Positions 8,215 through 43,700 of a DNA stretch of 64,000 nucleotides are shown one piece after another. The notes under the pieces are model-generated. The model was given only the letters and a program-made list of their open reading frames with translations, was not told where the DNA came from and did not search any database. The position numbers and the translations under genes were made by a program. The stretch spans positions 1 to 64,000 of the IMG/VR virus record IMGVR_UViG_3300046318_000374; one strand, given 5' to 3'. Numbering within the stretch: the first letter of the stretch is position 1; the number at the start of each line of letters is the position of its first letter. This stretch comes from a virus.

Positions 8215-8844
8215 TTACTTAAATTTATATCCGGTCAATTTTTCTATTTGTGCTACTGATACTTCGTTATTTTGGAATCCATCAGGGTTTGATACATCAT
8301 TGTTGAATAGATATGCATGGTATTTACCTGCCACTAAAACTACTTTCCAACATTGAGTAGGAACTGATACTTTACCTATTTTCTTTTGTTCTCCAACTGA
8401 ACCACTCCATACTTTTACTTTTGAACTAATCAATGCCCAATCGCGAGTTGCAGTTTCTAATGATTTCCAATCCCCTGCATTTAATCTATGTGTTTGTGCT
8501 ACCATATTACTAAAGTAGAAACATTCATCCTGCACCGCCGGAGTTTGGCAAAGGTTATCAGCGGCTGGCATTACGTGTCCTCTATCATATCCACTTTTTA
8601 CATAATCTGCTCCTATATTTGTTTCAGCAGGTAATTGTGGGTCTGGCTTAAAGTTATCCTTTCTTTTTAAGGGAGTTGGGCAACCTACCATTGCTTTTGT
8701 TGTTTCCCATTCTACTAATACTGGGTATCTTTTTGATTTACTGAAGTGTGTTGTGTAGTTTGTGTGTTTGATTACTACGATGTCCTGCGCTTTTACAACA
8801 ATTAATGTAAAAAAGAACAATAGACCTAAACCTAATTTTTTCAT
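8215..8844 (-). CDS. Exported DNA/RNA non-specific endonuclease (NucA/NUC1 family)
   Basis: 209 residues. Residues 1-19 are a classic Sec signal peptide (MKK, then GLGLLFFFTLIVVKA, then QD), of the Bacteroidetes style with Gln after the cleavage site. The mature part carries the family signature DRGHVMPAADN at residues 87-97 (catalytic His 90), then CFYFSNMVAQTHRLNAGDWKSLE, where the Asn residues help hold the metal. These enzymes cut DNA and RNA without sequence preference. The signal peptide places it in the periplasm or outside the cell. It heads a unit with the 735-residue protein and has a perfect late motif 26 bases before the ATG. Likely jobs are degrading extracellular DNA, recycling nucleotides after lysis, or blocking incoming DNA; the sequence does not say which. 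Confidence 0.9.
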   Translation of the reverse strand: MKKLGLGLLFFFTLIVVKAQDIVVIKHTNYTTHFSKSKRYPVLVEWETTKAMVGCPTPLKRKDNFKPDPQLPAETNIGADYVKSGYDRGHVMPAADNLCQTPAVQDECFYFSNMVAQTHRLNAGDWKSLETATRDWALISSKVKVWSGSVGEQKKIGKVSVPTQCWKVVLVAGKYHAYLFNNDVSNPDGFQNNEVSVAQIEKLTGYKFK

Positions 8845-8885: not shown

Positions 8886-10169
8886 TTACACTTTTCCGTA
8901 ATCCAATCCCCAACTCGCTTTGATAGGAAACCCACCCACCTCAATGATTTCTTTCAAATCTTTAATCTTATTCTTATCCACATCCATAGGAACATCAAAT
9001 AAGAATGAATCGTATGTATATAAGCTAAAACAAATATCACTACCCTCAATGTAATCCAAAATCCTACGCAATTTATCAATATTCATTTCAGTTTCAATTG
9101 CTTGTAGAAGATAGTTAAATACCTTTTGTGGATTCGGGTCTTCTATTAGGTTTAGTGGTATTTTTCGGTATTGTGTTTGTAAATACCCCTGCTTTACACT
9201 CTTATCCCACAATCCAATAATATAATCAGCTACCCCATTAAGAAATGGTATTTGGCGGAAATCATCATCGATACCTCCATATAGTAAACGGAATGTAATA
9301 CCCTTACCCTCCCCCAACTCACACCCGTATTGGTCTGCTAACCATTGGTGAACGGATGTTTTAGGTAATTCAAACCCAATCAACTTACCAATGATGCGGG
9401 GGTGATACGCATCATAATCCATTTGTAGAAATATCCCATCACTTACAAAACAATCACGAGAGCCATCGGTTTTGTTTAGGGCAGAGAAGTTAATTCCTCC
9501 GTGCCGATTGGATGGACGACCGGTGGTGGTGTATGGATTGTATTCGGTATAGATGGTGTTAGATGCGGTTATATGTTTTGTTGATTGAGACCATCTATCA
9601 ATAATTTTTTCCCTGTCGACCCGAACCCCATATTCCTCAATTCTCGATAAAACTGGAATACATATGTTATTATACCAATCAAAGTTAGTAGGTAATTCAC
9701 CAATTGGATTTTCATCCATTATTTGCTCTATAACACCTCCTAATTTAAGTAAAGGTAAAGATTGTACTATATCACTATGATAACCCAAGAGAGTCAAACT
9801 ATTGATGATTGGTTGGAATGGTTTTTCGTAATCGAATACTGAATGTTTGGATAAGTAATGATATGTATCGAAATCGTTACACTCTTTTTTACTTTTAATT
9901 GTTTGTAACCATTTTTTCTTTCCAAATACCCACTTTTCACCATCGGTATCCCAAATAGTTTCTAAATCGGCTTTTGTGAGAGGAGATGCATCGGTATGTT
10001 TGAGTGTAATGATATAATCCCCACTATTTACTCTAATAAAAACAAATGAAAGTTGTGTGTTCATAGGGTGTTTGCCCATATCAACCCACATTGGAAACCA
10101 ATAAGATGTTTGTGTATTCAGTAAAGGAATAAGGTTTTGTACCTCACTCAATGTTTCTATAACCTGCAT
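8886..10169 (-). CDS. Short family A DNA polymerase-like protein
   Basis: 427 residues from the ATG at 10169; an in-frame start 9 codons upstream would lie inside the promoter, so I reject it. It has Pol I-like landmarks: CIPVLSRIEEYGVRVDREKI near residue 170, GRPSNRHGGINFSALNK near 210, motif A as LQMDYDAYHPRI, motif B as KGITFRLLYGG, and motif C as SLYTYDSFLFD. The catalytic Asp of motifs A and C are kept, but the usual His and Glu around the motif C Asp (HDE) are not. The N-terminal third is only vaguely exonuclease-like. Family A phage polymerases copy DNA, but this one is short and sits away from the replication operon, so it may be a repair or accessory enzyme. It is preceded by a perfect host-type promoter that would give a nearly leaderless mRNA. 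Confidence 0.8.
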   Translation of the reverse strand: MQVIETLSEVQNLIPLLNTQTSYWFPMWVDMGKHPMNTQLSFVFIRVNSGDYIITLKHTDASPLTKADLETIWDTDGEKWVFGKKKWLQTIKSKKECNDFDTYHYLSKHSVFDYEKPFQPIINSLTLLGYHSDIVQSLPLLKLGGVIEQIMDENPIGELPTNFDWYNNICIPVLSRIEEYGVRVDREKIIDRWSQSTKHITASNTIYTEYNPYTTTGRPSNRHGGINFSALNKTDGSRDCFVSDGIFLQMDYDAYHPRIIGKLIGFELPKTSVHQWLADQYGCELGEGKGITFRLLYGGIDDDFRQIPFLNGVADYIIGLWDKSVKQGYLQTQYRKIPLNLIEDPNPQKVFNYLLQAIETEMNIDKLRRILDYIEGSDICFSLYTYDSFLFDVPMDVDKNKIKDLKEIIEVGGFPIKASWGLDYGKV

Positions 10170-10173
10170 TTTA

Positions 10174-10205
10174 CAAATATACAAAAAAAATCCCACAAAT
10201 CCAAA
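10174..10205 (-). promoter_or_regulatory. Bacteroidetes-type promoter of the polymerase gene, overlapping the tmRNA terminator
   Basis: TTTG, 20 bases, TATATTTG in the gene direction, a perfect consensus match. Only 4 bases separate the -7 box from the ATG at 10169, so the transcript should start at or very near the start codon. The -33 TTTG is in the loop of the tmRNA terminator and the U-tract lies in the spacer. Confidence 0.8.
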
Positions 10206-10220
10206 TGGAAAAGTGGGATT
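10183..10220 (-). terminator. Rho-independent terminator of the tmRNA
   Basis: AATCCCAC pairs with GTGGGATT across a 16-base loop and is followed by eight T. The 5' arm begins at the last base of the CCA end of the tmRNA. It is interleaved with the polymerase promoter. Confidence 0.85.
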
Positions 10221-10600
10221 GGTGGAGATGGCGGGATTCGAACCCGCGTCCAGATAAGTTTCTAATGTAAATCGTTCACAAGTTTAGGATAGTGTTTTAT
10301 CTTACTAACACTCCAAAAGAATTGGGGCCGACTGGTTAAGTCAGCAGATTCCACCAACCGATTTAGAGTTTCGGTAAACTTAAAATTTTCACTTCTTTTT
10401 AATTCCCACGAGTGATGCGGGAGCGATTAGGCAGCTACTGCGTAATCGAAAGACTCCATCCATGCCATAGCATCTCCGAAAGTCATTGTAGATAATTCTA
10501 CGTCTGCACTTATTGTTTGATAGGTCTTCAAAGGTTTCCATCTAACCTTACTTGCATCAATACAACCAGTCTTCATACCTGTCAAAAGCCGGTCATCCCC
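10220..10600 (-). ncRNA. ssrA: Transfer-messenger RNA (tmRNA), one-piece
   Basis: tmRNA rescues ribosomes stalled on broken mRNAs and adds a degradation tag. The 381-base gene has all parts visible. The acceptor stem is GGGGATG at the 5' end with CATCTCC at the 3' end (one G-U pair), followed by encoded ACCA. The T-arm is GCGGG-TTCGAAT-CCCGC. Pseudoknot 1 has stem AAGGTT/AACCTT and loop GATGG pairing with CTATC, which ends 11 bases before the resume codon. Pseudoknot 2, after the tag stop, has TCCCGC/GTGGGA with loop TCACT pairing with AGTGA. A third has CTGACT/AGTCGG with loop AACC pairing with upstream GGTT. A stem GTGTT/AACAC may be the fourth. It has a host-type promoter 20 bases upstream and its own terminator. 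It is complete and flanked by phage genes on both sides, so it belongs to the phage and is not an integration scar. Confidence 0.96.
10427..10507 (-). CDS. tmRNA tag reading frame (26-residue proteolysis tag)
   Basis: Translation would resume at GCA, preceded by ATAAGT much as the E. coli resume codon is preceded by ATAGTC, and stop at TAA. The tag begins ADVELSTMTF and ends ESFDYAVAA, giving the small-hydrophobic AVAA end that ClpXP-type proteases read. 26 residues is longer than the common 9-15, though tags of this length are known in Mycoplasma. The exact resume codon is inferred from spacing to pseudoknot 1; one codon either way cannot be excluded. Confidence 0.85.
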   Translation of the reverse strand, partial: ADVELSTMTFGDAMAWMESFDYAVAA

Positions 10601-10651: not shown

Positions 10652-11005
10652 TTATCTTTTATAGAATTGTAAAAAGTTTGGAAGATATAATTGTACTGCG
10701 GGTAATTTTTGTGATGCGTACTTAACTGATTTGAAATTCATCTCTTTTACTTTACTCTCATCACCACTAATAACCCAATCTAAATCAACTGATATATAAA
10801 ATGTATTATCTATTAACGATGAAAATTCTTTTCTATCAATTTCAATTACCGGTGAATTTTTATCATTTACCTTTTGAGCAAAATATCTAACAACATACCC
10901 TTGCTCATAATCACTTTTTTTAGGAGTAGCAACGGATGGTTTAATATCACTTTTTTTAAATTCGGTTGGTAATTTAACTAATTTATCAAATCTATTAATA
11001 TTCAT
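10652..11005 (-). CDS. Small uncharacterised protein at the end of the tail gene block
   Basis: 117 residues, not recognised. It has a basic N-terminus (FDKLVKLPTEFKKSDIKP), then a compact alpha/beta-looking part (GYVVRYFAQKVND, VIEIDRKEFSSLI, YISVDLDWVISG) and a C-terminus ending YLPNFLQFYKR. No membrane segment or signal peptide. It starts 2 bases after the stop of the large baseplate hub candidate, so it is the last gene of the tail/baseplate unit. A small baseplate component or a baseplate assembly factor is the simplest reading from context alone. Confidence 0.75.
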   Translation of the reverse strand: MNINRFDKLVKLPTEFKKSDIKPSVATPKKSDYEQGYVVRYFAQKVNDKNSPVIEIDRKEFSSLIDNTFYISVDLDWVISGDESKVKEMNFKSVKYASQKLPAVQLYLPNFLQFYKR

Positions 11006-24595: not shown

Positions 24596-24604
24596 TATAA
24601 TTAT
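24596..24604 (-). promoter_or_regulatory. Degenerate late-type motif before the 129-codon gene
   Basis: ATAATTATAGTTATATAAG in the gene direction, one base different in the core and an added base after it, 18 bases before the ATG at 24577. It overlaps the stop codon of the giant fibre gene. Weak but in the expected place. Confidence 0.3.
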
Positions 24605-27600
24605 TGATTTTCCAAATTTTGAATTCTACCTTCAATTTGTTCAAGTTTAGATTCTAAGAAAGCAATTCTTTCTTCTAATGCCACACTTTTAGCTTCCAAT
24701 TCTTTAATACCCTGAACTGTTAGACCGTGAATACCATTATAGTTCAAACTCTTATAGTATCTACCCGGTGTATCAGGTCCATCATCAACCCATTGGTCTC
24801 TTACAATAGTAGGTAGAATAGCTTCAACCTCCTGTGCAATTAAACCTGCTGAATAATTTTCTGCACCATCAATATCGTGCATTGGATGGTTTGTCATTGG
24901 AGTATTTTCAGCAAATTCGTAAGTGTATCCACTAATTTGTGAAATTTTCTCTAATGCGTTTTCAATTACATTTAGGTTGGTTTTCAAATCTCTATCAGAG
25001 AAACCATTCCACTCCCATTGTGCACCTCTTGTTCTTAAATGTCCACCATTTTCCAATGACATAGTTTGTGTGTAGTAGTTAAACCACTCATAAACTTGTC
25101 CAGCGTTATTGTATGTATTTCTAGAACCATAATCACCTTGTCCATATACCGCATTAAAGAATGGACCATTTGAGTTAGAGTTACCCAATGACCAACCACA
25201 ACCCATAAACGCACCATAGTTTGCTTGGAAACCAAATTGGTACATTGCTGTTGTTGCAATGAAGTTTACGTTGGCGTTATTAAAACGAGAGAATGAGTTA
25301 AAATCACCATACCAACTACCATCTTCTCTATCATAGTACACACCAGAGTACATATAGTTCAAACGAGTTAAACCATTAGGGTCAACCTGATAATATGTAT
25401 CATTTGAATCGTAGAATATAGGACTTCTCATTGAACCTACTGAATAGGTATATCCTCTATATACGTTAAATGCACCACCATCCCAATACCAGTTCCAACT
25501 ATATCTATTGTCGTGTAAACCAAAGTTATCGCCGGTTGTAGTCATTAAACAATGTGTAGATGCTACACCCCATCCATACCAACCACTACGTCCACCACCA
25601 TATGTTGAAACGTGACCATATGAGTTTCCAGCACCTTCCGGTGACATAAATCCTCTACCATATGGTTGCCAATACATACCATTAGCCGTATTTTGTCTAA
25701 ACCAATCGTTTATGTATATGTTTGTAAATGTTGGATTACCATCAGTTCTTACCGATTGGTTGACGTGACTACTCATCCAACCCAAATATCCTAACCAAAG
25801 GTCACCACTTCTATTGATATATGCTCTTTCCGCACCACTATCAGTTCTGAAGATAAAGTATCCAGATGATTGTTGTTGGAAATACATATGGGTTGAGTGC
25901 CATTGAATCTTATTGTATTCACCTTGCCAACCTCCCATATCACTATACAACATATAACCCGGTTGAATATAATGGTTATTTGAGTTTACAAAGTTTAATC
26001 TATTTGTACCATCTGGGTCACAATAATATCCAGTATTGTTTGAATCATAAAAAATAGTTCCATATAATGAAGAGCCATAATTGTATCCATATGTTACTAC
26101 TCTATATCCGTTTGCATATAAATCGTTTACATTGAAATAGAAGTTAGAACGGTCAGTATAAATGTGAGCATGTCCAGTATTTGCAGGTCCAAACTGAATC
26201 CAACCTGATGAAGTATTATGTCTCCAACCCCAATCACCACCGGCAAAGTAAAAACTACCATTACCATAATCTATTGATGCCAAACGAGAACGACCGTTGG
26301 GGTCTACAAAATAGCCAGTATCATTTTGGTCATACATTATAGTACCTCTCAAATATCCAGATGCTATTATATTACCACTACCCCAGTTTGTACCAGATGC
26401 TTGGAAACCAACCAAAGAAGAACCATTTATGATTTGATGATGCCAAGTGGCAGAGTTTTGAAAATTCCATAAAGCTCCATAAGATTCACTTAATCTCGCA
26501 CCAACACCATTATCAAATGTTGCACCAGAACCTCCTAATACTAATTGAGCACCACCATTAAGAGTTAAACCTCCACCACTTACAGTGAAAATTCTATACA
26601 TATTTGAAGTACTGGTTGGGTCTACATAATATCCAGTATTATCATTATCATAGAAAATTGGTGCCTGAATTGAACTTCTAAACCAACCTCTAGATGAAAT
26701 GGCTGCGAATGTAGTACCATAGTTCATCACCAATAATCCGTGGTCATTTAAGAATCCGGCCTGTCCTCCTGCGTTTGGATGTGACCAAGCTAATCCATAT
26801 AAGTTACCAGTAGATGCACCATCAATTGATAATTTGTATGCATTACCCATTGCGAATACACCCTGATATCTAATCGATGTATAAACACCAACGATTGATT
26901 GTCCGTAGTTGTAATCTAAATAAATATTTTCGTTACCATCAACTCTAATACCACCATTGGCTGCCACATAAGATAATCTAGCAGTACCAGTAGGGTCAGT
27001 ATAATATCCGGTGTTATCTAAATCGTAATAGATTGGAGAACGCATATCGGCAGTACCATAAACACGTCCCATATATGATGTATAACCATCCATATAGTAT
27101 GATGATTGGTTATTTAAGTATAAACCACCACCATTTGCTTTCCTTAAATCCCAACTTGCCCAAACACCATTTAGGAAACCATAGCTACCGCCACCATCTC
27201 CATATAATTGATATTGGAATTGTCCACCACTACCTCTACCATAGATACCACCATCTCCTTGTGATGAACGGATGTACATAGTACCATTGTTCCAACTATT
27301 AACATAGTGTGTACCACCATTGTAGTTGATACCACCCATTACAGAATCTCCATTAGGATTTACATAATATGCACCATTGTTTGAATCATAGTAAATAGGT
27401 GCGTACATTGCATTACCTGCCGTAATATTAGTTCCGGCAGTAAATGATGCAGGTGTTCTTAAATTACGAAGGTCACCAGAAATCCAAGAGTAAGAATCGG
27501 ATTCAATTGCTACTGAATATCCTTCGGCAACATCCATTACTCCACTATAATACGAACCATTTTGAATTTTTCGTAATACCACTTGTCCATAAGACCAGCT

Positions 27601-30600
27601 AGATGAACCATTACCAATTACAATACAATATCGTCCATCCTTAAAACCAACTCTTACTGGTTTATCAGTTTGTCCAACTACCTCCGCATTATAGTTATAC
27701 CAGTTACCATTCCAATTGTGTCCACCAACTATTACAGTTGCCGCGGCATTTCCACTATATTCATACAGGTCAATTTCCGCATGAACCATACCATAGTTAT
27801 TGATATTACCAGGAAATTTAATAACTACTGCACCAGTTGCTCCACCACTTGCTCCCCAAACTGCATATGGTCTACCTACTAAATTTTGTTGTTTTATACC
27901 ACCTGCTATTCTTAATGAAGTTGCAGTTGTACCTGGGTCTAAAAAGTATCCAGTATCATTGTAATCATAGAATATTGGTGCTCTAAATGAACCAGCAGCA
28001 ATTGCAGTACCACCATGTTCAACTCCAAAATTGGCTGTCCAACCAGATGAGAATATATGGAATGCTTTGCTTGAATCCATATGGATACCAAATCCAGCTT
28101 TAGCAAAGAAACCTCTACTACTACTATTTTTAATTAATCCTTCATCCCAACCAGCGCCTGTATTTCTTAACCAATAAATATATGGCCATTGGTCTGCATT
28201 TGATGTATCATATCCAGTACCATTTACATAAAAATTACCACTTTGTAAAGCTACAATATTGGATGTAGACGCTGGGTCCATATAATAACTTGTGTTGTTA
28301 TTATCATAGAATATTGGAGAACGCGTATCTATATAAGAATATAATCTACCATCACTATCCAAACGCATTCCTTCCGTGCCATTGATAGATGTAAAATCCG
28401 ATGTATTATTTACAAAGAATCTTAATCTACCACCAGTATTTGTTCTACCGGCTATAATATAGTTATCACCATTGTTACCCAATTGTAAACCATACCAGTT
28501 AAGAGATGCGTGATAAATATCAGAACCAGTTGAATATCTAGCTCTAAAGTAGTTACCAGAACCGGGAACGTAAATATCACCATTAGCAACATTTCCTCTA
28601 GCAGTTACTGTTGCCAATGTTTCACTACCAGCAGTTCCACTAATATTTGTATTTATTGAGTTTTTAGGGACAGTTACTACTCTACTCAAACCAGAAGTTG
28701 TTGCTGTGCTAATTGACCAGTTTTCTAAATAAGCAGCACCCTGGTCATATATACATCTTACATTAAATCTACCATAGTAGATGTTATTTGATAAATGAAT
28801 ACATACTTTATTACTACCATTAGTACCAATTGAAATGGTACCAGGGTCCCAAGCTCCTAAATTATCATATGAATAACTAACCCAACTATTATTATATGCA
28901 TACCAAACAATTTCTAAATGTATAGGTACACCACTACCATACGCATAACCTTCAATAATAACCGTTGGCATATTAAAAGTTCCATAATCAATATTTGTGG
29001 TGATTAAATATCCAGTTGTTGGAGTTGAACTACCACCATAATATGCTGATGTTAAACTATGATATGGTGTTGTTACTTGTTGTGTTCTTAATATGTTTAA
29101 GTTTGATGTAGAAGCAGGATTTACATAATACCCGGCATCATCATTATCATAAAAAATAGGTGCTCTAAATGATGTTGGTGCGTACACATTACCATCATTA
29201 TTTGCTTGTAATCTCCAAGTAAACGTACTACCATCCCAACTTCCCAATTGTACACCATTACCAGATGGATGTGCCGATAATCTTGTATATGCACCACTTA
29301 CACCCAATGCATATCTACCACTTGCTCCCATAGTTAATAATGGGAATGTTTCAACAGTATTTCCTAATGCTAATGAATTTAAGTTAGATGTACCATTATT
29401 GATATAATAAGTTGTACCACCACCAACATATAAAGTTGTACCAGTTATTGTACCAATCGCTGAAAAGTTACCGGCATTTGATAGTGTTGCTAATGTAGTA
29501 AGAGTACCTGCCGAAATACTAGCAGGCGTTATAGTTGCTTGATTTAATTTTGAAAATACAATATCAGCACTATTGTTTGTTGTAATATGTGCAGCAAATC
29601 CACCTTTTTTAACAAATCCTAAATTTCTATCATTACCAGCAACAATACCAGTGTTATCCAATGGATTTTCAATTGAACCTAATACTTGTAAAAGACTTCC
29701 ATTAAATGTTAAATTACTTTCAACCGTTGCATTTGGTGCTGAACCATTTAATGTAATTACACCATTATCGGTTGTACCAGTTAAAGAAAGTAATCCACTA
29801 CTACCAGATGAACCACTACTTCCACTACTTCCGCTTGAGCCGGATGTACCTCCACTACCAGCAGTTCCGCGTGTTCCAGAAGAACCAGAAGAACCACCAC
29901 TACCAGCCGTACCGCTTGTTCCAGAAGAACCAGATGTTCCACTACTTCCACTTGCTCCAGTTGCGCCAGAAGTACCAGATGTACCATTTGCTCCTGCAGG
30001 TCCTGATGTACCAGATGTTCCTGCCGTTCCGCGTGTTCCGGAAGAACCACTACTACCACTTGAACCAGATGTACCACCACTTCCGGCAGTTCCCATAGTA
30101 CCACTACTTCCACTTGAACCAGAAGAACCAGATGTACCAGAAGAACCAGCAGTACCAGATGTTCCAGCTGCCGATAACCAAGCCGAACCATTCCATCTAT
30201 AAATGTTGGTATCTGCCGTATTGTAATATAATTGTCCTACTGCAACTCCAGTTGGTGCATTTGCTGCCGTTGGAATTACGATTGAACCTGAAATTCTTAG
30301 TGAACCTGTAACTTCGTGTATATCGTTCATTGCATCACCAAACTTATTACTTCCACTTGCGTAGATTAATGATGATGAAATGTATTGTACAAATAATTCA
30401 GTTGTTTGGATTCTACCACCAACAGTTAAGTTACCAGTAATTGTTTCATTACCAGTTACGGATAGAACTGTCCCATCAAATTTAAGATTTGCCTCCGCAG
30501 TTACGTTTGGTGCTGAACCATTAAGTGTAATTACACCATTATCAGTTGTACCAGTTATAGATAATGCACCAGAAGAACCAGATGTACCACCACTTCCTGC

Positions 30601-32610
30601 ACTACCGCTTGTACCAGATGTTCCGCCAGTTCCAGCAGTTCCGTTCGTACCACTCGTTCCGCCAGTTCCATTTGTACCACTCGTTCCGCCACTACCCGCA
30701 GTACCTGTTGTACCACTACTACCGGCAGTTCCTCTTGTTCCAGAAGAACCAGATGTACCTCCACTACCAGTTGAACCAGCTGCGCCTGATGTACCACTAC
30801 TTCCACTTGTTCCACCACTTCCTGCAGTTCCCATTGTACCAGATGTACCTCCGCTACCAGCAGTTCCATTTGTACCAGATGTACCACCACTACCACTTGT
30901 TCCGCTAGTTCCACCAGTACCAGAAGAACCCGCAGTACCACCACTACCCCCTGCACCAGTTATACCAGATGTACCGCCAGAACCAGCACTACCGCTTGTC
31001 CCAGATGTACCACCACTACCAGCAGTTCCGTTTGTTCCAGAAGTTCCTCCAGTACCTGATGTACCAGATGTGCCACCGGCTCCACTTATACCAGATGTAC
31101 CACCACTACCACTACTTCCGTTTGTTCCAGATGTACCGCTACTTCCGTTTGTTCCAGATGAACCACTACTTCCGCTTGAGCCAGATGAACCCGTTGTACC
31201 AGAAGAACCCGTTGTACCAGATGAACCAGTTGTACCGGATGAGCCTGTTGTACCAGAAGACCCCGTTGAACCAGATGAACCAGATGAACCAGAAGAGCCA
31301 GATGAACCAGAAGTTCCGGATGAACCTCCACTTCCACTTGTACCAGATGTACCACCACTACCGGCAGTTCCTCTCGTTCCACTACTTCCGCTTGAGCCAG
31401 ATGTTCCACTACTTCCAGTTGTTCCAGATGAGCCAGTTGAACCACTACTTCCACTACTTCCACTACTACCTGATGAACCACCACTACCAGATGTACCGGA
31501 TGTACCTGATGTACCACCACTACCACTTGTACCAGATGTTCCAGATGTTCCACCACTACCAGATGTTCCAGAAGTACCTGAAGTACCTGAAGTACCTGAA
31601 GTACCAGATGATGCGGCTGCCGTTCTTCTACCAACAACACCAGTAGTTGTATTAAGTACCAAAAACTCTTCAGTTGTATCGTCTGTTCTTGTGTTACCAC
31701 TATCTAGTCTAACACTACCAGAAACTGATAAACTACCACTTATACCTAATGAACCTGTAATTTCTTGTTTATCAGTTGTTGTATCACCAAATTTGTTTGA
31801 ACCAGATGCGTAAATAATTGAAGATGATATGTAAGTAGCAAATAATTCCGTTGTGTTTATTTTTCCACCAACATTTAAGTTACCACTAAATACAGCGTTT
31901 GAACCTGTAATGTTTCTTAGTATTAAATCGCGTCTGTTAGCTACTGAACCATCGGCAGTATTACCATCATATATTTCTAAAGAACCAGTTGTGTTTCTTC
32001 GAATACCCAAATCTCGCGTACCATTGGAATCGGTTGTTTGACTCCATACATGTGTAATATTATTACCACCTCTAAATTGAGTTTGTGATATTCTAATTTC
32101 TCCACCATTTGAACCTAATGTACCACTCCAAGTAATATTTGGACCAACAATAGCAGTAGTAGCTCTAATATTTGATGCGGTTGCATTTGCTGTAATATTT
32201 AGTGAACCGTTTACATCCCCACTACCACTAACTCTCAATGAACCACTTATTGTTGTATTTGTATTTACAACTAATCCTAAATTTGGAGAAATTACCGCTT
32301 GAGCCGAACCAGATTTTATTCTATCGATATCACCAATTGAAGATGCATTAATATTTGTTATACCACTACCATCTCCTATAAATGCAGATGCCGATACTGA
32401 ACCACTAAATTGTGTGTTTGCGTTTACTTGTAATGTACCATTATTAGGTGTCCCAATAATATTTGTTTGTACCGATGAACCAGTTACACCACCAAATACA
32501 TTTAATGAACCAGATGATGCATTAAATACCGATGAACCGCTCACATTTAGTGATATAACACTAGCACTTACTTGATTTAACCCGTTAGGACTCTTACCGC
32601 TGAATACCAT
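24601..32610 (-). CDS. Giant tail fibre with collagen-like repeats and S74 intramolecular chaperone
   Basis: 2669 residues. N-terminal 330 residues: beta modules including an ISSSxIYASGSNKFGD element and one IKSGSAQAVISP element. Next come two Gly-X-Y collagen-like stretches (about residues 333-681 and 814-938), each followed by a GTTDNGVITLNGSAPN module. About residues 1150-2400 hold nine copies of a [RQ]xPIFYDxNxTxYYxDPxxxS unit. The last 140 residues are a Peptidase_S74 self-cleaving chaperone (FSDRDLKTNLNVIENALEKI, GLIAQEVEAILPTIV, LTVQGIKELEAK) and a C-terminal coiled coil. S74 domains fold the trimeric fibre and are cut off. This is probably a receptor-binding fibre; its host-contact part should be the segment just before S74. 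Confidence 0.92.
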   Translation of the reverse strand: MVFSGKSPNGLNQVSASVISLNVSGSSVFNASSGSLNVFGGVTGSSVQTNIIGTPNNGTLQVNANTQFSGSVSASAFIGDGSGITNINASSIGDIDRIKSGSAQAVISPNLGLVVNTNTTISGSLRVSGSGDVNGSLNITANATASNIRATTAIVGPNITWSGTLGSNGGEIRISQTQFRGGNNITHVWSQTTDSNGTRDLGIRRNTTGSLEIYDGNTADGSVANRRDLILRNITGSNAVFSGNLNVGGKINTTELFATYISSSIIYASGSNKFGDTTTDKQEITGSLGISGSLSVSGSVRLDSGNTRTDDTTEEFLVLNTTTGVVGRRTAAASSGTSGTSGTSGTSGTSGSGGTSGTSGTSGSGGTSGTSGTSGSGGSSGSSGSSGSSGSTGSSGTTGSSGTSGSSGSSGTRGTAGSGGTSGTSGSGGSSGTSGSSGSSGSSGSSGSTGSSGTTGSSGTTGSSGTTGSSGTTGSSGSSGSSGSSGTNGSSGTSGTNGSSGSGGTSGISGAGGTSGTSGTGGTSGTNGTAGSGGTSGTSGSAGSGGTSGITGAGGSGGTAGSSGTGGTSGTSGSGGTSGTNGTAGSGGTSGTMGTAGSGGTSGSSGTSGAAGSTGSGGTSGSSGTRGTAGSSGTTGTAGSGGTSGTNGTGGTSGTNGTAGTGGTSGTSGSAGSGGTSGSSGALSITGTTDNGVITLNGSAPNVTAEANLKFDGTVLSVTGNETITGNLTVGGRIQTTELFVQYISSSLIYASGSNKFGDAMNDIHEVTGSLRISGSIVIPTAANAPTGVAVGQLYYNTADTNIYRWNGSAWLSAAGTSGTAGSSGTSGSSGSSGSSGTMGTAGSGGTSGSSGSSGSSGTRGTAGTSGTSGPAGANGTSGTSGATGASGSSGTSGSSGTSGTAGSGGSSGSSGTRGTAGSGGTSGSSGSSGSSGSSGSSGLLSLTGTTDNGVITLNGSAPNATVESNLTFNGSLLQVLGSIENPLDNTGIVAGNDRNLGFVKKGGFAAHITTNNSADIVFSKLNQATITPASISAGTLTTLATLSNAGNFSAIGTITGTTLYVGGGTTYYINNGTSNLNSLALGNTVETFPLLTMGASGRYALGVSGAYTRLSAHPSGNGVQLGSWDGSTFTWRLQANNDGNVYAPTSFRAPIFYDNDDAGYYVNPASTSNLNILRTQQVTTPYHSLTSAYYGGSSTPTTGYLITTNIDYGTFNMPTVIIEGYAYGSGVPIHLEIVWYAYNNSWVSYSYDNLGAWDPGTISIGTNGSNKVCIHLSNNIYYGRFNVRCIYDQGAAYLENWSISTATTSGLSRVVTVPKNSINTNISGTAGSETLATVTARGNVANGDIYVPGSGNYFRARYSTGSDIYHASLNWYGLQLGNNGDNYIIAGRTNTGGRLRFFVNNTSDFTSINGTEGMRLDSDGRLYSYIDTRSPIFYDNNNTSYYMDPASTSNIVALQSGNFYVNGTGYDTSNADQWPYIYWLRNTGAGWDEGLIKNSSSRGFFAKAGFGIHMDSSKAFHIFSSGWTANFGVEHGGTAIAAGSFRAPIFYDYNDTGYFLDPGTTATSLRIAGGIKQQNLVGRPYAVWGASGGATGAVVIKFPGNINNYGMVHAEIDLYEYSGNAAATVIVGGHNWNGNWYNYNAEVVGQTDKPVRVGFKDGRYCIVIGNGSSSWSYGQVVLRKIQNGSYYSGVMDVAEGYSVAIESDSYSWISGDLRNLRTPASFTAGTNITAGNAMYAPIYYDSNNGAYYVNPNGDSVMGGINYNGGTHYVNSWNNGTMYIRSSQGDGGIYGRGSGGQFQYQLYGDGGGSYGFLNGVWASWDLRKANGGGLYLNNQSSYYMDGYTSYMGRVYGTADMRSPIYYDLDNTGYYTDPTGTARLSYVAANGGIRVDGNENIYLDYNYGQSIVGVYTSIRYQGVFAMGNAYKLSIDGASTGNLYGLAWSHPNAGGQAGFLNDHGLLVMNYGTTFAAISSRGWFRSSIQAPIFYDNDNTGYYVDPTSTSNMYRIFTVSGGGLTLNGGAQLVLGGSGATFDNGVGARLSESYGALWNFQNSATWHHQIINGSSLVGFQASGTNWGSGNIIASGYLRGTIMYDQNDTGYFVDPNGRSRLASIDYGNGSFYFAGGDWGWRHNTSSGWIQFGPANTGHAHIYTDRSNFYFNVNDLYANGYRVVTYGYNYGSSLYGTIFYDSNNTGYYCDPDGTNRLNFVNSNNHYIQPGYMLYSDMGGWQGEYNKIQWHSTHMYFQQQSSGYFIFRTDSGAERAYINRSGDLWLGYLGWMSSHVNQSVRTDGNPTFTNIYINDWFRQNTANGMYWQPYGRGFMSPEGAGNSYGHVSTYGGGRSGWYGWGVASTHCLMTTTGDNFGLHDNRYSWNWYWDGGAFNVYRGYTYSVGSMRSPIFYDSNDTYYQVDPNGLTRLNYMYSGVYYDREDGSWYGDFNSFSRFNNANVNFIATTAMYQFGFQANYGAFMGCGWSLGNSNSNGPFFNAVYGQGDYGSRNTYNNAGQVYEWFNYYTQTMSLENGGHLRTRGAQWEWNGFSDRDLKTNLNVIENALEKISQISGYTYEFAENTPMTNHPMHDIDGAENYSAGLIAQEVEAILPTIVRDQWVDDGPDTPGRYYKSLNYNGIHGLTVQGIKELEAKSVALEERIAFLESKLEQIEGRIQNLENQ
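25380..29175 (-). repeat. Nine copies of the PIFYDxNxTGYYxDP unit
   Basis: Degenerate repeat in the fibre protein, spaced 90-280 residues apart. Positions in the window are near 29150, 28310, 27970, 27380, 27020, 26640, 26320, 26040 and 25410. Each begins [RQG][SAT]PI[FMY]YD and ends YxxDPxGxxx or NPASTSN. Segments between copies differ strongly, so the unit is likely a structural joint between variable blades. Confidence 0.85.
29797..30172 (-). repeat. Collagen-like Gly-X-Y tract 2 of the 2669-residue fibre
   Basis: About 125 residues of Gly at every third position with Ser, Thr and Ala in the other two, such as GSSGTSGTAG. A single proline occurs (GPAGANG). Confidence 0.85.
30568..31615 (-). 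repeat. Collagen-like Gly-X-Y tract 1 of the 2669-residue fibre
   Basis: About 350 residues of Gly-Ser/Thr-Ser/Gly/Ala triplets (GTSGTSGSGG, GSSGTTGSSG). No proline was seen. The opposite strand carries a long open frame (30380-31813) that is only a shadow of this repeat. Confidence 0.9.
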
Positions 32611-34712: not shown

Positions 34713-37700
34713 TTACGCCATATTTAATCCTGTCACAAATCCATAATAAGTTGTTCCTCCATCATAAGTATAGAATACCAAAATATCAGTTCCACTTGCA
34801 GTTAATGCAGGTGCACCAGTTCCACCAGCCCATCTAACAGTTCCTGGCCAAGTTATTGTACCACTTCCACCATTTACAATCAACAATGTAAAACCAAATG
34901 CCTTACCTGCAGGTGGATTTGTGAATGTTACAGCCGCTGATGATGTAAATTGTCTTCTAAAGTTGTTTGCAGTTGATAAATCAATTGTAACATTTGTACC
35001 CGAACCTAAATTTGAGTATGTTTCTCTAAATACAGTTGTTGTTACATAAGTACTAGCATCTACTGCACCTGTGATTGTTAGTATTGTACCATCAAATGTT
35101 AAGTTTGATTCAACCGTTGCATTTGGAGCAGTTCCATCTAACGTAATAATACCATTATCGGTTGTACCAGTTAAAGAAAGAAGACCAGATGTACCTGCTG
35201 AACCAGTTGAGCCAGATGAACCAGATGTACCACCGCTACCAGCAGTACCACCTGCAGATGTACCAGATGAACCGGTAGTACCAGAAGTTCCGTTTGTACC
35301 ATTAGTTCCAAAGAATGTACCATCTACACCAGATGAGCCAGATGAACCATTTGTACCAATACCTGATGTTCCACTACTTCCACTTGAACCCGATGTGCCT
35401 GAAGAACCACTACTTCCAAAGAATGTACCATCTAAACCAGAAGAGCCAGTTGTACCAGATGTTCCATCAGTACCAGTTGAACCAGATGTACCTGTTGAAC
35501 CACTACTTCCGCTACTTCCGCTTGAACCACTACTTCCAAAATAAGTACCATCTAAACCACTACTTCCACTTGAACCAGATGTGCCAGTTGAACCACTGCT
35601 TCCACTTGAACCACTACTTCCACTTGAGCCTGAAGAACCACTACTTCCAAAATATGTACCATCTAAACCAGATGAACCACTACTTCCGCTTGTACCGGAT
35701 GTACCATTTGATGCAGAAGAACCACTACTACCAGAAGAACCTGCAGTTCCACTACTTCCAAAGAAAGTACCATCTAAACCAGAAGAACCAGATGTACCTG
35801 TACTTCCGGACGAACCAGATGTACCCATTTCACCACTACTTCCACTTGAACCACTACTTCCACTAGAACCAAAGTAAGTACCATCTAAACCACTACTTCC
35901 ACTTGAACCAGTTGTACCAGATGTACCATCAGTACCAGTTGAACCAGATGAACCACTACTTCCACTTGAACCTGCAGTACCACTACTTCCAAAGAATGTA
36001 CCATCTAAACCACTACTTCCACTAGAACCTGTTGAACCAGATGAACCTGTTGTACCAGAAGTTCCTTCAGAACCACTACTTCCGCTCGAGCCACTACTTC
36101 CACTTGTACCAGATGAACCAAAGTATGTACCATCTAAACCAGATGAACCACTACTTCCACTTGAGCCACTACTTCCGCTACTTCCACTACTTCCACTTGA
36201 GCCACTACTTCCACTTGTTCCAGATGAACCAAAGAAAGTTCCATCTACCCCACTACTTCCGCTAGTTCCATTTGTTCCGCTTGAACCCGAAGAACCACTA
36301 CTTCCACTTGAACCAGATGAACCACTACTTCCAAAATATGTACCATCAAATCCACTACTACCGCTTGAACCCGATGTTCCATCAGTACCAGTTGAACCAC
36401 TACTTCCACTTGAGCCAGATGAACCATCGATTCCAGATGTACCATCTACACCACTACTTCCACTACTTCCGCTTGAGCCAGAAGAACCGCTTGAACCACT
36501 ACTTCCACTACTACCAGAAGAACCAGAAGAGCCTGATGTACCAGATGAACCAAAATATGTACCATCTTGTCCTGATGTACCAGATGTTCCTGCTGCTCCG
36601 GCTACTCCACTACTACCCGCAGTTCCCGGTGTACCCGCAGTACCACTTGAACCAGTAGCGCCAGATGTACCACTTACACCTGAAGAACCTGATGAACCAC
36701 TACTTCCAAAATATGTACCATCTAAACCACTACTTCCACTACTTCCGCTTGAGCCAGATGTACCACTAGAGCCACTACTTCCACTACTTCCGCTTGAGCC
36801 AGAAGTTCCATCGCTACCAGTTGTACCAGATGAACCGCTACTACCACTTGAGCCAGATGTACCGCTTGTTCCTGCCGTACCAGTTGAACCATCAGTTCCA
36901 CTACTTCCACTAGAACCATCAATACCAGAAGAACCAGAAGAACCGCTACTTCCACTTGAACCAGAAGAACCGCTACTTCCACTTGAACCACTGCTTCCAC
37001 TACTTCCATCTAATCCAGATGAACCAGATGAACCAGATGTTCCTTCACTACCAGTTGTACCACTACTACCGGTTGAACCACTACTGCCACTACTTCCACT
37101 ACTTCCGCTAGTTCCGCTGCTTCCACTTGAGCCAGATGAGCCTGATGTTCCTTCACTACCAGTTGTACCAGATGAGCCACTACTTCCACTACTTCCGCTA
37201 CTTCCGCTTGAACCACTACTTCCACTACTTCCACTACTTCCGCTTGAACCAGATGAACCAGTTGTACCAGAAGAACCTGTTGTACCACTACTTCCACTAC
37301 TTCCGCTGCTTCCACTACTTCCGCTTGAACCACTAGAACCAGATGTTCCACTAGAACCAGTTGTACCACTACTGCCCGAAGAGCCAGAAGAGCCTGAAGT
37401 TCCGTTTGAACCGGATGTACCTGATGTACCATCTTCACCGCTAGTTCCACTACTACCAGCCGAACCTGCCGAACCATTTGAACCAGATGAGCCAGAAGAA
37501 CCTGAAGTTCCATCAAAACCAGATGTACCGGCTGAACCACCCGAACCAGCAGAACCCGCCGAACCAGTTGTACCACTACTACCAGATGAACCACTACTTC
37601 CACTACTTCCCGCAGTTCCACTTGAGCCAGAAGAACCATCTACTCCACTACTTCCGCTTGAACCAGATGAACCGCTTGTAGCAGATGTACCAGAAGAACC

Positions 37701-40700
37701 AGCAGTTCCCGTTGAACCAGATGTACCTGCCGTACCGCGTGTTCCAGAAGAACCAGATGTACCTCCACTACCAGATGTACCACTTGTACCAGAAGTACCA
37801 GCAGACCCCGTTGTTCCACTACTACCAGATGTTCCACTACTTCCGCTAGTTCCACTTGAGCCGGATGTTCCACTTGTTCCACTACTACCAGATGTTCCGC
37901 TTGAACCAGTTGTACCACTTGAACCAGATGTTCCACTACTTCCAGATGTTCCGCTTGAGCCAGATGTACCACTACTTCCAGATGTTCCACTACTTCCAGA
38001 TGTTCCACTACTTCCAGATGTACCACTACTTCCGCTTGTTCCGCTTGAACCAGATGAGCCAGATGAACCGCTACTTCCACTACTTCCACTTGAACCAGAA
38101 GAACCGCTAGAACCAGTTGAACCACTACTTCCACTAGAGCCACTACTTCCACTACTTCCGCTTGAACCAGATGTTCCATCAATACCAGATGAACCAGATG
38201 AACCAGATGAACCACTACTTCCGCTACTTCCACTTGAACCAGAAGAACCACTGCTTCCACTTGAACCAGAAGAACCAGAAGAACCATTTGTACCAGATGT
38301 ACCTGCTGCCTGCTGAACGTCTCTAGCTTCTAATTTTTTTGTTGTTTCATTCCAAACTACTACTAAATTTGAATTAGAGCCAGTGTTGAATGAATTAACA
38401 TATATACTTCCACTTGCACCCAAACTACCACTAACTACAAAGTTTGCGTTAATTGTACTGTCTTGATTTGCTTGTACAAATGATGCAGTATCTACGTTTG
38501 TTGCGTTTAGTGCAAATTGTGCAACTGATGCAAATGATGATGAGTAAACATACATTGATGCAGTTTGCTCATTTTTAATAAATCCTTCCGCCGTTAATGC
38601 TCCACCTAATACATAAGATGCAGTTACGGCGTATGATGCTGATAATGCAAACGATGCAGTACCAACTGTCATTGAAGCAGTTTGTGAATTTTGTATAAAG
38701 TTTGCCGTATCTACATTGGCTGCATTAGCTGCAAACAATGCATACGATGATGATTCTGCAAAATACACACTCATCGAAGATGTTTGTGAATTAAGAACAA
38801 ATTGACCTGTGTTAGCAGATGCAGATATTAATGCTTCTAATGAACCACTACTTAAACCCTGAACATTTGCTGCTACTTCTGCAAATCCTGCTCTTTCAGC
38901 ATATGATGAAGAAAGTACAGTACCTATTACTCTATCACCCTGAATTGTTCCATTTATTAAAGAACCACCACTACCGATTACCGCGTGTCCACTTGTTAAA
39001 CCACTAAAGTTAATTTGGACAGTATCGTTATCAATTGCTAAAATTGATGCCGGTAGAATCATTTCTTCAGAGCCAGTTGCATAGACCTGAACCATTGGAT
39101 AACGAATATCCAAATTATGAACAATTGTTACCGAACTTACATTATTAAATGATACTGTCTCCGTTAAAGTAGTTTCTGGTTGAGGAATATAGTATCCTCT
39201 ATTTTCATCCCATCTTAAAATATCGTATTCTACACTAGCAGTTGGTCCTCCACCTGTAAATGTGTAAGTACCATATAATGAACCACTTAAATATGGAGAG
39301 TATAGGAAACTAGCCGTTAATTCCGGCGTTACTAATCTATCAGTATATGTTGTACCATAAATACTTGCCGATGTATTAACTACAAACCCATTATCAGGCG
39401 AAATTGATGCAGTAAATGAACCGGATTTTAATATTGGAGTTTCAAATGCTAAATTAGCAATGTTGATATTTGTTAAACCACTACCATCTCCCACATAACG
39501 TGAACCAGATGCTGCAACTACATCACTACCAGTAATAAAGATACCGCCGGTAACATACAATGAACCAGTTATAGAAACATCCGTATCAACTTGCAACCCT
39601 TTGTTTGGTGAAATTACAGCAGTTACCGAACCAGAAGTAATTCTATCTAATTTAAGGTCTTGCAATGCTTCAGCAGGGATGTTAAACAAACCACCACCAT
39701 CACCAGAATAATATGCCGCCGTTACCGGTACATTTATAGTTAATAATTCAGGGTCAATTAACGCAACTGCAGAACCAGATTGAATTCTATCTATTTCTAA
39801 ATCTTGTAAAGCAGATGCTGGGATGTTAAATAATCCACCACCATCTCCTTTATATAGAGATGCAGTTATCGAACCGCTGAATGCAACTGAACCACTAATA
39901 ACTAAACTTAATGAAGATGTACTAACAGTTCCAGTTACAGTTATTGGTACATTTGATACAAATCCTAAATTTGGAGAAATAGAAGCAGTTGCACTACCAC
40001 TAGCAATACGAGGTGTATCACCAGAACGTTCTGCAATTACACCTGTCAATTGAGAACCATCTCCAAAATAAGTTATTGCCGTTACTGAACCACTTACATT
40101 AACCGAACCTGTAAATTGTGAACCACTTTCGGGTGAAAATACAATAAGACCAGTTTCGGGCGATACGGAAGCAGTTACCGAACCACTAGCAATACGAGGC
40201 GAATCGGCTGAACGTTCAGCGATTACACCGGTTAATTGAGAACCATCTCCATAATATGTAAATGCTCTTACCGAACCACTAACATTAACTGAACCAGTGA
40301 ATTGTGAACCACTTTCTAGTGATAAAACTACAAATCCGTTTTCCGGCGTTACCGAGGCAGTTACACTACCAGTTGCAATTAAATTAGCCGTTAATGCATC
40401 AGGAGTTAGGGCAGAACGAGGGATGTTAAATAATCCAGCACCACTACCACTAAAGAACGATGCAGTTGTTGCTAACTGAACAAGTCCATCTACAAATATA
40501 CTACCAGTAAATTGTGAACCACTTTCTAACGATATTACTCTGAACCCATCTTCAGGTGATACCGAAGCAGTTACACTACCCGTTGCAATTAAAGTTGCCG
40601 TTAATGCATCCGGAGTTAGAGCAGAACGAGGAATATTGAATAATCCCTCACCACTACCGGAGTAGAATGAACCAGATGATAATTGAACACCACCACTTAC

Positions 40701-43700
40701 AAATAAAGAACCTGTAAATTGTGAACCACTATCTAACGCCTCTACTTTGAAACCATATTCAGGACTTACCGAAGCAGTTATTGAACCACTAGCAATCTTA
40801 AACGCATCAGTTGATAGAGCAGATATTGGTATATCAAATAAATTAGCACCACTACCACTAAAACCAGATGCAGATACTGCTACATTAACAACCATCCCAG
40901 CTTCAGGTGATATAGATGCCGAAGCAGAGCCTGAAATTATCTTTGAGGAATCAATTGCTAAATTAGCTAATGTAATATTGGTTAATTGAGAACCATCTCC
41001 AACAAAATATGAACCAGTTGGTACATATAAGTTACCACTTACAATCGTTTCTCCAATAAATTCAATTTTTTGAGGTACTTCATATTGATTTACAATATTG
41101 ATTGTACCACCCATTGTTTGGTGTATTTGACAATTGTAATAAAGCGTATCAGGAGAACCACTAGGTGGTGTAAATGTGATAACACCAACATCATCACCAC
41201 CATTTGTTACACCATCACTATATACATTAGTTAATCCTGCACCATACACTGTCTTAAATAAGAATGGGTGCCCTGTTGCGTTTATGTTAAATGTATAAGT
41301 TACTCCTCTTACTAATTTTAATGTTGGATTATCACCAACTATTGCACCATCAAATGTATATGCGGACATACCATTTGCAGTTACATCAAATGTAGTTAGT
41401 AAAGAACCAGTTGGTATTATTACAATTGAAGAAGAAACTGTCAATCCACCACTAATAAATGTATTAGTATTGATTTCCAATCCTCTATCCGGCGAAATTG
41501 ATGCAGTTGCACTACCACTTGCTATTCTAAATGCTTCTTCCGATAATGCATTTAATGGAATATTAAATAAACCCTCTCCACTACCAGTAAATGCAGATGC
41601 AGATACAGTATTTTGGAAATATGCAGGTACATTTGTTGTAAATCCACTAATTGGAGATACTGAAGCAGATGCCGAACCTGAAATTATTTGTGTAGAATCA
41701 ATAGCTAAATTAGCTAATGAAATATTTCTTAATTTTGAACCATCTCCAACAAAGAATGAACCAGTTTCGGTGTAAATGTTACCATTTACTCTTAAACTAC
41801 CAGTAAATTGTGAACCACTTATAGTAGATTCAACTCTAAATCCAAATTCTGGCGATACTGAAGCAGTTACTGAACCACTTACTATTCTAAATGCCTCACT
41901 TGTTAAGGCAGATTGTGGGATATTAAATAAACCCTCACCAGAACCAGTAAACGCAGAAGCAGAAACCGTTGTATTAACTACTAATCCTCTATCAGGTGAT
42001 ATTGAAGCAGTTGCCGAACCACTAGCAATTCTAAATGAATCACCAGAGATAGCAGATTGTGGAATATTGAATAATCCCTCACCAGAACCAGTAAATGCCG
42101 AAGCGGAAACTGTATTTGTGAAGTATGCGTCCACATTTACATTAAATCCTTCTACCGGAGAAATAGATGCAGTAGCAGAACCACTAGCAATCTTATTAAT
42201 TTCAAAAGATAAAGCAGATTGTGGGATATTAAATAAACCCTCACCACTACCAGAGAAATAACCAGAGCCAGATGGTATAGTTGTTATACCACTTATGTTA
42301 ATACTACCAGTAAATTGTGAACCACTTACTAAAGATTCAACTCTAAACCCATTTTGTGGTGTTACCGAAGCAGTTACCGAACCAGATGTTATTTGAGTAC
42401 TAATTAATGCGTCTGGTGTTAGGGCAGTACGTGGTATATTAAATAATTTTTCACCAGAGCCACTAAAGAATGAACCAGAGTCAATAAATACACTACCACT
42501 AATGGTTAAACTACCACTAATTGTTGCAAAAGTATTAACAACTAAACCAGTTGATGGTTCAATTGATGCAGTTGCACTACCACTTGCTATTAAAGTTGAT
42601 GTTAATGATGGTATGTTTGTTAATCTACTACCATCACCCTGAAATGAACCACTAAATGAACCGCTAAACTCAATTGCAGTTATTGAACCACTTACTTCAA
42701 TAGAACCTGTAAATTCTGAACCACTTTCTGATGATTCAACTCTAAATCCATATTCAGGGTTTACCGAAGCAGTTACCGAACCACTTGCTATGAAAGAACT
42801 AATTAAAGCATCTTGCGTTAAAGCAGTTCTAGGAATATTAAATAATCTTTCTCCACTACCACTAAATGATGAACCTGAAACTAATTCAATTCCACCACTT
42901 ACAAATAAAGAACCAGTAAATTGTGAACCACTATCTATTGAAATTACTCTAAATCCATATTCAGGAGCAACTGATGCAGTAATACTACCACTTTTGATTT
43001 CAGTTGATATCAAAGCATCCTGCGTTAAGGCAGAACGAGGAATATCAAATAATTGTTGTCCACTACCACTAATGAACGAACCAGATGCCATAAAAATGCT
43101 TCCACTAAACGTAGAACCACTTGCAGTTGATTGAACTACAAATCCAAACTCATCAGTTACCGATGCAGTTACCGAACCACTAGCAATTAAATTAGATAAA
43201 AGGGCATCTGGTGTTAAAGCAGAACGAGGAATATCAAATAAACCTCTACCGCTACCACTATATTGTGATGCCGATACCGAACCTTCAAAACTTGCCGAAG
43301 TATTAACTACTAAACCAAAATTAGGAGAAATAGATGCAGTTGCACTACCACTTGCAATTAAAGTACTAATTAATGCATCGGGAGTTAGAGCAGAACGTGG
43401 TATATCAAATAAATTTCTACCAGAACCACTAAATGATGAACCAGAATTGAGTAAAACACTACCACTTACACGTAAACTTCCACTTATTTCTGCAAAAGTA
43501 TTAACAACTAAACCCCTATCAGGAGATATTGATGCAGTTGCACTACCACTAGCAATACGAGGAGCTACTGTTGATGGTACATTTAATAATTGTGAACCAT
43601 CACCAACAAAAGAGCCAGTGAATGAACCACTTGCACTATTAACAATTAAAATATCTCTGATTTCAACCGAACCTGTGAATTCTTGTCTATCGGTTAATTC

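Follow-up and report, generated by a model that had tools for sequence, protein, structure and literature searches.

Why should a phage carry a tmRNA of its own, and does the gene found here serve anything beyond ribosome rescue? The locus lies in a 64,000-nucleotide stretch of DNA (the window) from a 64,292-base IMG/VR contig. An earlier note on the window had described a complete, phage-encoded one-piece tmRNA with an acceptor stem, an encoded CCA, a T arm and pseudoknots on either side of the tag, and had proposed the Rfam covariance model RF00023 as a check. ARAGORN and RF00023 concurred on a single tmRNA, and the RF00023 match (97.1 bits, E 1.2e-36, against a gathering cut-off of 47 bits) covered model positions 1-374 at full length and without truncation; it was the sole Rfam match within the window. 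Each of the structural elements described was present, with covariation backing the pseudoknots. The same note had called such a gene unexpected in a Bacteroidetes T4-like phage, which holds only partly. tmRNA genes have been reported in 402 of 18,146 phage genomes (PMC9004378), were listed earlier for mycobacteriophages and Bacillus phage G (PMC4131195), and are known from huge phages (PMC7162821), from Menderavirus and from the flavobacterial (Cellulophaga) phage Calle (PMC8776804), whose tmRNA was recovered again in the present analysis. The gene belongs to a known tmRNA family, and its novelty lies in the tag: the real oddity is the length and conservation of the whole tag, on which the note, having named its AVAA tail, did not comment, and not the presence of a tmRNA in a phage.

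The acceptor stem reads GGGGAUG/CAUCUCC, followed by ACCA, with the discriminator A at 10223 and the encoded CCA at 10222-10220; the G3-U70 pair is retained in 29 of 31 relatives. Across these 31 relatives, 43 proposed pairs (acceptor stem, T arm, pseudoknots 1 and 2, and two hairpins within the tag) gave a covariation score of 0.240, compared with 0.097 +/- 0.007 in shuffles and at most 0.079 for slid columns. Both sides had changed in 19 of the 43 pairs. All five pairs of the T arm showed compensatory changes, with 100% of cells paired. For pseudoknot 1 such changes occurred in four of six first-stem pairs, the second stem being weaker; in pseudoknot 2 they were found in the first stem, and the second was paired in only 55% of cells (MAFFT columns). 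The 5' tag hairpin is invariant in this alignment and adds nothing to the score; its support comes from a separate test described below. The tRNA-like domain with G3-U70, the pseudoknots, the hydrophobic AxAA tail and a tag frame starting ~90 nt from the 5' end are all shared with bacterial one-piece tmRNAs (RF00023). Unlike those, the gene is virus-encoded, and its tag family, 23-26 aa long, has a conserved middle and two in-frame hairpins. If RNase P processes the 5' end, the short leader would be removed.

Table 1. Features at the tmRNA locus, in window coordinates.
Feature	Position	Strand	Basis
Family A DNA polymerase-like gene	8886-10169	-	PHROG DNA polymerase, 2.6e-9; Immutovirus homologues annotated DNA polymerase family A
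Promoter of the polymerase-like gene, likewise Bacteroidetes-type; overlaps the terminator	10174-10205	-	promoter pattern scan
Intrinsic terminator, 8-pair stem with inner hairpin, then T8	10180-10220	-	folding
One-piece tmRNA gene (ssrA), 381 nt	10220-10600	-	ARAGORN, RF00023, structure covariation in 31 relatives
Acceptor stem, 3' strand	10224-10230	-	sequence, RF00023, covariation
T arm GCGGG-TTCGAAT-CCCGC	10231-10247	-	covariation alignment
Pseudoknot 2, downstream of tag	10389-10422	-	covariation
Tag reading frame ADVELSTMTFGDAMAWMESFDYAVAA, 26 codons + UAA	10427-10507	-	ARAGORN; frame conserved in relatives
RNA hairpin GCAG-UAG-CUGC in AVAA codons	10431-10441	-	synonymous covariation
Tag middle (MTFGDAMAWMES here; consensus MTFEDAMAFVGA), constrained as peptide	10451-10486	-	pN/pS
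RNA hairpin GUAGA-AUUA-UCUAC in first tag codons	10488-10501	-	covariation
Pseudoknot 1, upstream of tag	10519-10549	-	covariation
Acceptor stem, 5' strand (includes G3 of the alanine identity pair G3-U70)	10594-10600	-	RF00023, covariation
Short leader with GTTCTTTAA	10601-10619	-	sequence; similar leader in several relatives
Bacteroidetes-type -33/-7 promoter TTTG-N20-TATATTTG	10651-10620	-	exact pattern match
117-aa protein, conserved neighbour upstream of tmRNA	10652-11005	-	of 141 distinct loci, 53 have it as the closest recognised gene upstream

A promoter and a terminator belonging to the tmRNA itself had also been claimed, and both were found. The promoter ends 20 nt 5' of the tmRNA. 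Sites of this type number 13 in the window against 3.8 expected, a count reached in none of 100 shuffles, and the element recurs upstream of the tmRNA in relatives (34 of 141 contexts by a strict pattern demanding a short leader). The terminator, directly 3' of the tmRNA, folds at -15.5 kcal/mol (z -4.36) with eight T after the stem; a simple terminator scan overlooked it, the loop being longer than that scan allows. The polymerase-like gene on that side probably starts at the ATG at 10169 and not at the called GTG at 10196, which falls inside the terminator. This gene agrees with the flanking genes named previously, whereas the baseplate gene placed on the other side does not adjoin the tmRNA: the adjoining ORF is that of the 117-aa protein, and the 874-aa gene beyond it is presumed to be a baseplate gene from its position. 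Neither the 117-aa protein nor the 874-aa gene product had a PHROG or Pfam match. On the far side of the polymerase-like gene, and adjoining it, lies a DNA/RNA non-specific endonuclease (PF01223, 3e-39; 8215-8844, minus strand) with a Bacteroidetes-like signal peptide, homologues of which follow the polymerase-like gene in many relatives.

The assignment to T4-like phages is well supported, with a gp23-like capsid protein, a tail sheath, UvsX, gp32, the head-tail adaptor Ad2 and a T4_baseplate protein all present in the window. The Bacteroidetes part of the earlier description is likely, though on indirect grounds: the promoter type, the relatedness to Flavobacterium phages and putative signal peptides such as MKKLGLGLLFFFTLIVVKAQ. 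By tail sheath, the closest match is a phage assigned to Microcystis. The closest cultured phage of a Bacteroidetes host is Immutovirus (Flavobacterium phage vB_FspM_immuto_2-6A), matching at 40% in the tail sheath and 28% in the polymerase-like protein, with a similar gene order; its record has no tmRNA, and the tmRNA is therefore dispensable in some relatives. Three very long ORFs (24601-32610, 34713-44210 and 45158-54868, encoding 2669, 3165 and 3236 aa) lie between the tail and head genes and take up a large part of the window there.

We then considered how widely the gene is kept. Among 50 related records retrieved by tail sheath, 19 carry a tmRNA over the cut-off, many of the others being short fragments. 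Searching with the polymerase-like gene gave a tmRNA with the same tag family at 50 of 80 loci, and some of the remaining 30 have the tmRNA elsewhere on the contig (3300034050_000451 and 3300042519_001962). When 141 distinct tag contexts were compared, both conserved neighbours were present in 49, the upstream one alone in 4, and no recognisable window gene lay nearby in 75; the position is thus kept in over a third of distinct tag loci, and the others sit elsewhere in T4-like genomes. A T4-type capsid protein is encoded by 15 of 40 carrier records, including most of the longest, the other records being for the most part shorter fragments. Phages are known to integrate at host ssrA genes (PMC9004378, PMC11590407), and a functionless ssrA fragment acquired at such an attachment site would also place tmRNA sequence in a phage genome. 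Against this origin stand the completeness of the gene, its promoter and terminator, its conservation in many contigs and the absence of its tag motif from the prokaryotic genomes scanned. We therefore rejected a host remnant, as the earlier note had, and regard this explanation as very improbable: the same gene occupies the same place in many related viral contigs.

The tag is 26 aa long in this phage, with a range of 23-26 aa among relatives (consensus DVELSTMTFEDAMAFVGADYAVAA), and the frame in the window closes with ...DYAVAA*, a hydrophobic proteolysis signal that resembles a ClpXP degron; C-terminal ALAA is a ClpXP signal (PMC3985003). By comparison, ARAGORN or annotated tags in four known phage tmRNAs (Menderavirus, phage G, Alcaligenes and Streptomyces phages) have 10-14 aa, a short tag being usual and not strictly defining. 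All 33 distinct tmRNAs found via neighbouring genes, in searches that did not use the tag, carry this tag family; the full collection came to 69 distinct tag strings. At least 120 viral contigs were matched by a degenerate DNA motif representing F[ED]DxM[AST]F[VIM]GA[ED]. In all 120 matches listed the tag peptide is encoded, and nearly all of these end in an AxAA-type tail, the exceptions being a few with ATFA and two cut by contig ends. Four relatives (L308, L361, L367 and L368) have tag variants that end in DEATFA with no AxAA tail, reminiscent of the AFA end in Mycoplasma. Several ARAGORN frames (VNKTELYLSAL, EQPQLYLSAV, VNKPEHYLSAP, AEEYALAA, AEYAVAA and similar) were rejected as misplaced, the conserved frame being intact.

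The degenerate motif was absent from the 84,980 prokaryotic (bacterial and archaeal) species scanned, and it is on this absence from genome collections that any contrast with the tag of the host itself depends. A peptide-pattern scan of genomes returned 21 candidate stretches, none of which was confirmed as a relative. No match to the tag family was obtained in 50,697 phage records with a 24-aa tblastn query, a search of limited sensitivity, nor did a PDB sequence search with the tag give one. Literature searches for the tag string and for Bacteroidetes host tags were likewise without a match.

To what extent is the tag constrained as a peptide? The analysis of the 12 codons of the tag middle was restricted to the 15 distinct sequences obtained without recourse to the tag. 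There pN/pS was 0.47 in frame compared with 1.23 and 1.46 in the shifted frames, and a value as low occurred in none of 200 column permutations; the peptide of the tag middle is therefore under constraint. The pN/pS of the whole tag (0.42) mixes hairpin and peptide constraint. These values bear on the usual explanation of phage tmRNAs, namely that the gene supplies an extra dose of ribosome rescue and nothing else, the long tag being neutral baggage save for its AVAA end. The tail is that of a normal degron, and the variation of tag ends (AVAA, ALAA, AIAA, AYAA and a few ATFA) fits such an account. Neutral baggage, however, would not be expected to show a middle conserved as peptide, and most of the phages retain T-F-[ED]-D-x-M, also where the flanking genes are unrelated. 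We consider rescue alone unlikely. The length of the tag, its conservation at the peptide level and its absence from the cellular genomes searched indicate that selection acts on the tag itself, beyond ribosome rescue.

At both ends of the tag, constraint acts on the RNA in addition. For the 5' tag hairpin, covariation was 0.226 compared with 0.051 +/- 0.018 after shuffling, with four of six pairs changed on both sides; VELST, AEELSS and NSELSD are alternative paired solutions around its AUUA loop. In the AxAA hairpin the third bases of two alanine codons co-vary (A-T 21, T-A 26, A-A 0 and T-T 1 in 53 distinct ends). Since these third-base changes are synonymous, the constraint acts on the RNA. 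Phylogeny is ignored in these tests of the tag, pN/pS included, so that shared ancestry inflates the values, a concern that the slid-column controls for the 5' hairpin and the several independent pair types lessen without removing. A synonymous-codon folding test of the tag gave modest signals only, and covariation is therefore the better evidence for the hairpins. Conservation of the tag through RNA alone was rejected for the middle on the basis of pN/pS. The hairpins are a separate RNA-level feature, which may compact or protect the long reading frame.

Ribosome rescue with protein tagging is the most likely function, as judged by analogy with established tmRNA biology. In this scheme, host alanyl-tRNA synthetase would charge the tmRNA, and host SmpB and EF-Tu would deliver it, in the infected cell, to ribosomes that have stalled on broken mRNAs. 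These would add alanine and the 26-aa tag before being released at UAA, and host ClpXP would destroy the tagged protein via its AVAA end. Because the tag middle is conserved as a peptide while cellular genomes lack it, we propose that it offers a protease or adaptor an additional docking segment, and that the phage would thereby specify how tagged proteins are cleared. Overall, we think it likely that the tmRNA is functional, works with host SmpB and appends a phage-specific degron with an extra docking segment. Taken by itself, the proposal that the tag middle is a docking module for a protease, an adaptor or another partner is tentative, with the odds somewhat against it.

Could the peptide, rather than the disposal of tagged proteins, be the product that matters? 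Tagged or cleaved products might bind to some factor of the host, or act as decoys that saturate its ClpXP or Lon, the tmRNA thereby delivering a small inhibitor. As read from the sequence, the middle has helix-like hydrophobic spacing and what may be a capping-like T-x-[ED]-[ED] start, and in the scans of viral contigs and of the prokaryotic species the tag was found only in viruses. The tail, on the other hand, predicts rapid destruction, and an effector of this kind seems to us doubtful. The phage tmRNA might also act by competition, titrating SmpB or displacing the host tmRNA, or it might replace host tmRNA destroyed by host RNases in infection. A search for SmpB in 26 carrier records (63-274 kb), which are fragments or of uncertain completeness, was negative, a result that suits this reading as well as the use of host SmpB proposed above, and a molecule similar to the tRNA-like-domain-only tmRNA of mycobacteriophage DS6A strongly inhibits tmRNA (PMC4131195). 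A sink needs no conserved reading frame, yet few parts of the gene are as conserved as the tag frame, and we give this reading rather little credence. A ClpP-like protease is encoded in five of the 26 tag-bearing records (G057, G059, G060, G066 and G074), in three of them roughly 4 kb from the tmRNA. Phage ClpP was rejected as a general partner, its gene being present in only these five.

The preferred reading, a working tmRNA with a phage-specific degron, can be set against known systems. As here, the tmRNAs of mycobacteriophages such as Bxz1 and Wildcat, Bacillus phage G, Streptomyces phages, Menderavirus, Alcaligenes phage QDWS595 and the marine methylophage Melnitz are complete genes in phage genomes, and the Stenotrophomonas Menderavirus phages are also large (~160 kb); unlike here, several of these tmRNAs have been called permuted or sit in tRNA clusters. 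Cellulophaga phage Calle_1 (MT732432.1 42950-43311) has a tmRNA with a long ARAGORN tag, AQIEANMEAVNAILNLEVAVGV, in a Bacteroidetes-host phage, but its tag sequence is another one without an AVAA end, and the phage is classed as Pervagoviridae. Mycoplasma and Mesoplasma offer a cellular parallel, in which a longer-than-usual ssrA tag is matched to a different protease partner and read by Lon (PMC9382460); there the tag ends in AFA in hosts without ClpXP (PMC9382460, PMC3985003), in contrast to AVAA here.

A 484-kb uncultured phage (LR756508.1) provided two further observations. Its full tmRNA (92434-92880; locus L191) seems to encode a long tag ending in ...GVNNADYESAGFTAEDFAQMDGESLYHGSERKPAAV*, unlike the ARAGORN call, and this tag contains FTAEDFAQM, loosely like TFEDAM in the window. 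Given Calle and LR756508, long tags may extend among such phages beyond this single family, and on the evidence of Calle they may be a broader trait of tmRNAs in Bacteroidetes phages. The same phage also has a 112-nt tmRNA-like gene (414804-414915; locus L193, 1501-1612) with a tRNA-like domain, 58.2 bits to RF00023 and no room for a normal tag. It parallels the tRNA-like-domain-only tmRNA of DS6A; titration of SmpB has been suggested for molecules of that kind (PMC4131195). No relatives of the 112-nt gene emerged when viral contigs were scanned with a pattern. The annotated tmRNA of Maribacter phage Panino (PP540027.1 27557-27889) is doubtful: it scores 26 bits to RF00023, below the cut-off, overlaps tRNA-Asp and tRNA-Thr, and is probably a false ARAGORN call.

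These results bear on why phages carry tmRNA and make the question testable. With the nested hairpins, a single short stretch clearly does triple duty as peptide, RNA structure and degron, and the tag is possibly an orthogonal degron. If the tag middle is indeed a docking segment, these phages would rewrite the destination of the products of host trans-translation, using a virus-specific version of a bacterial disposal label.
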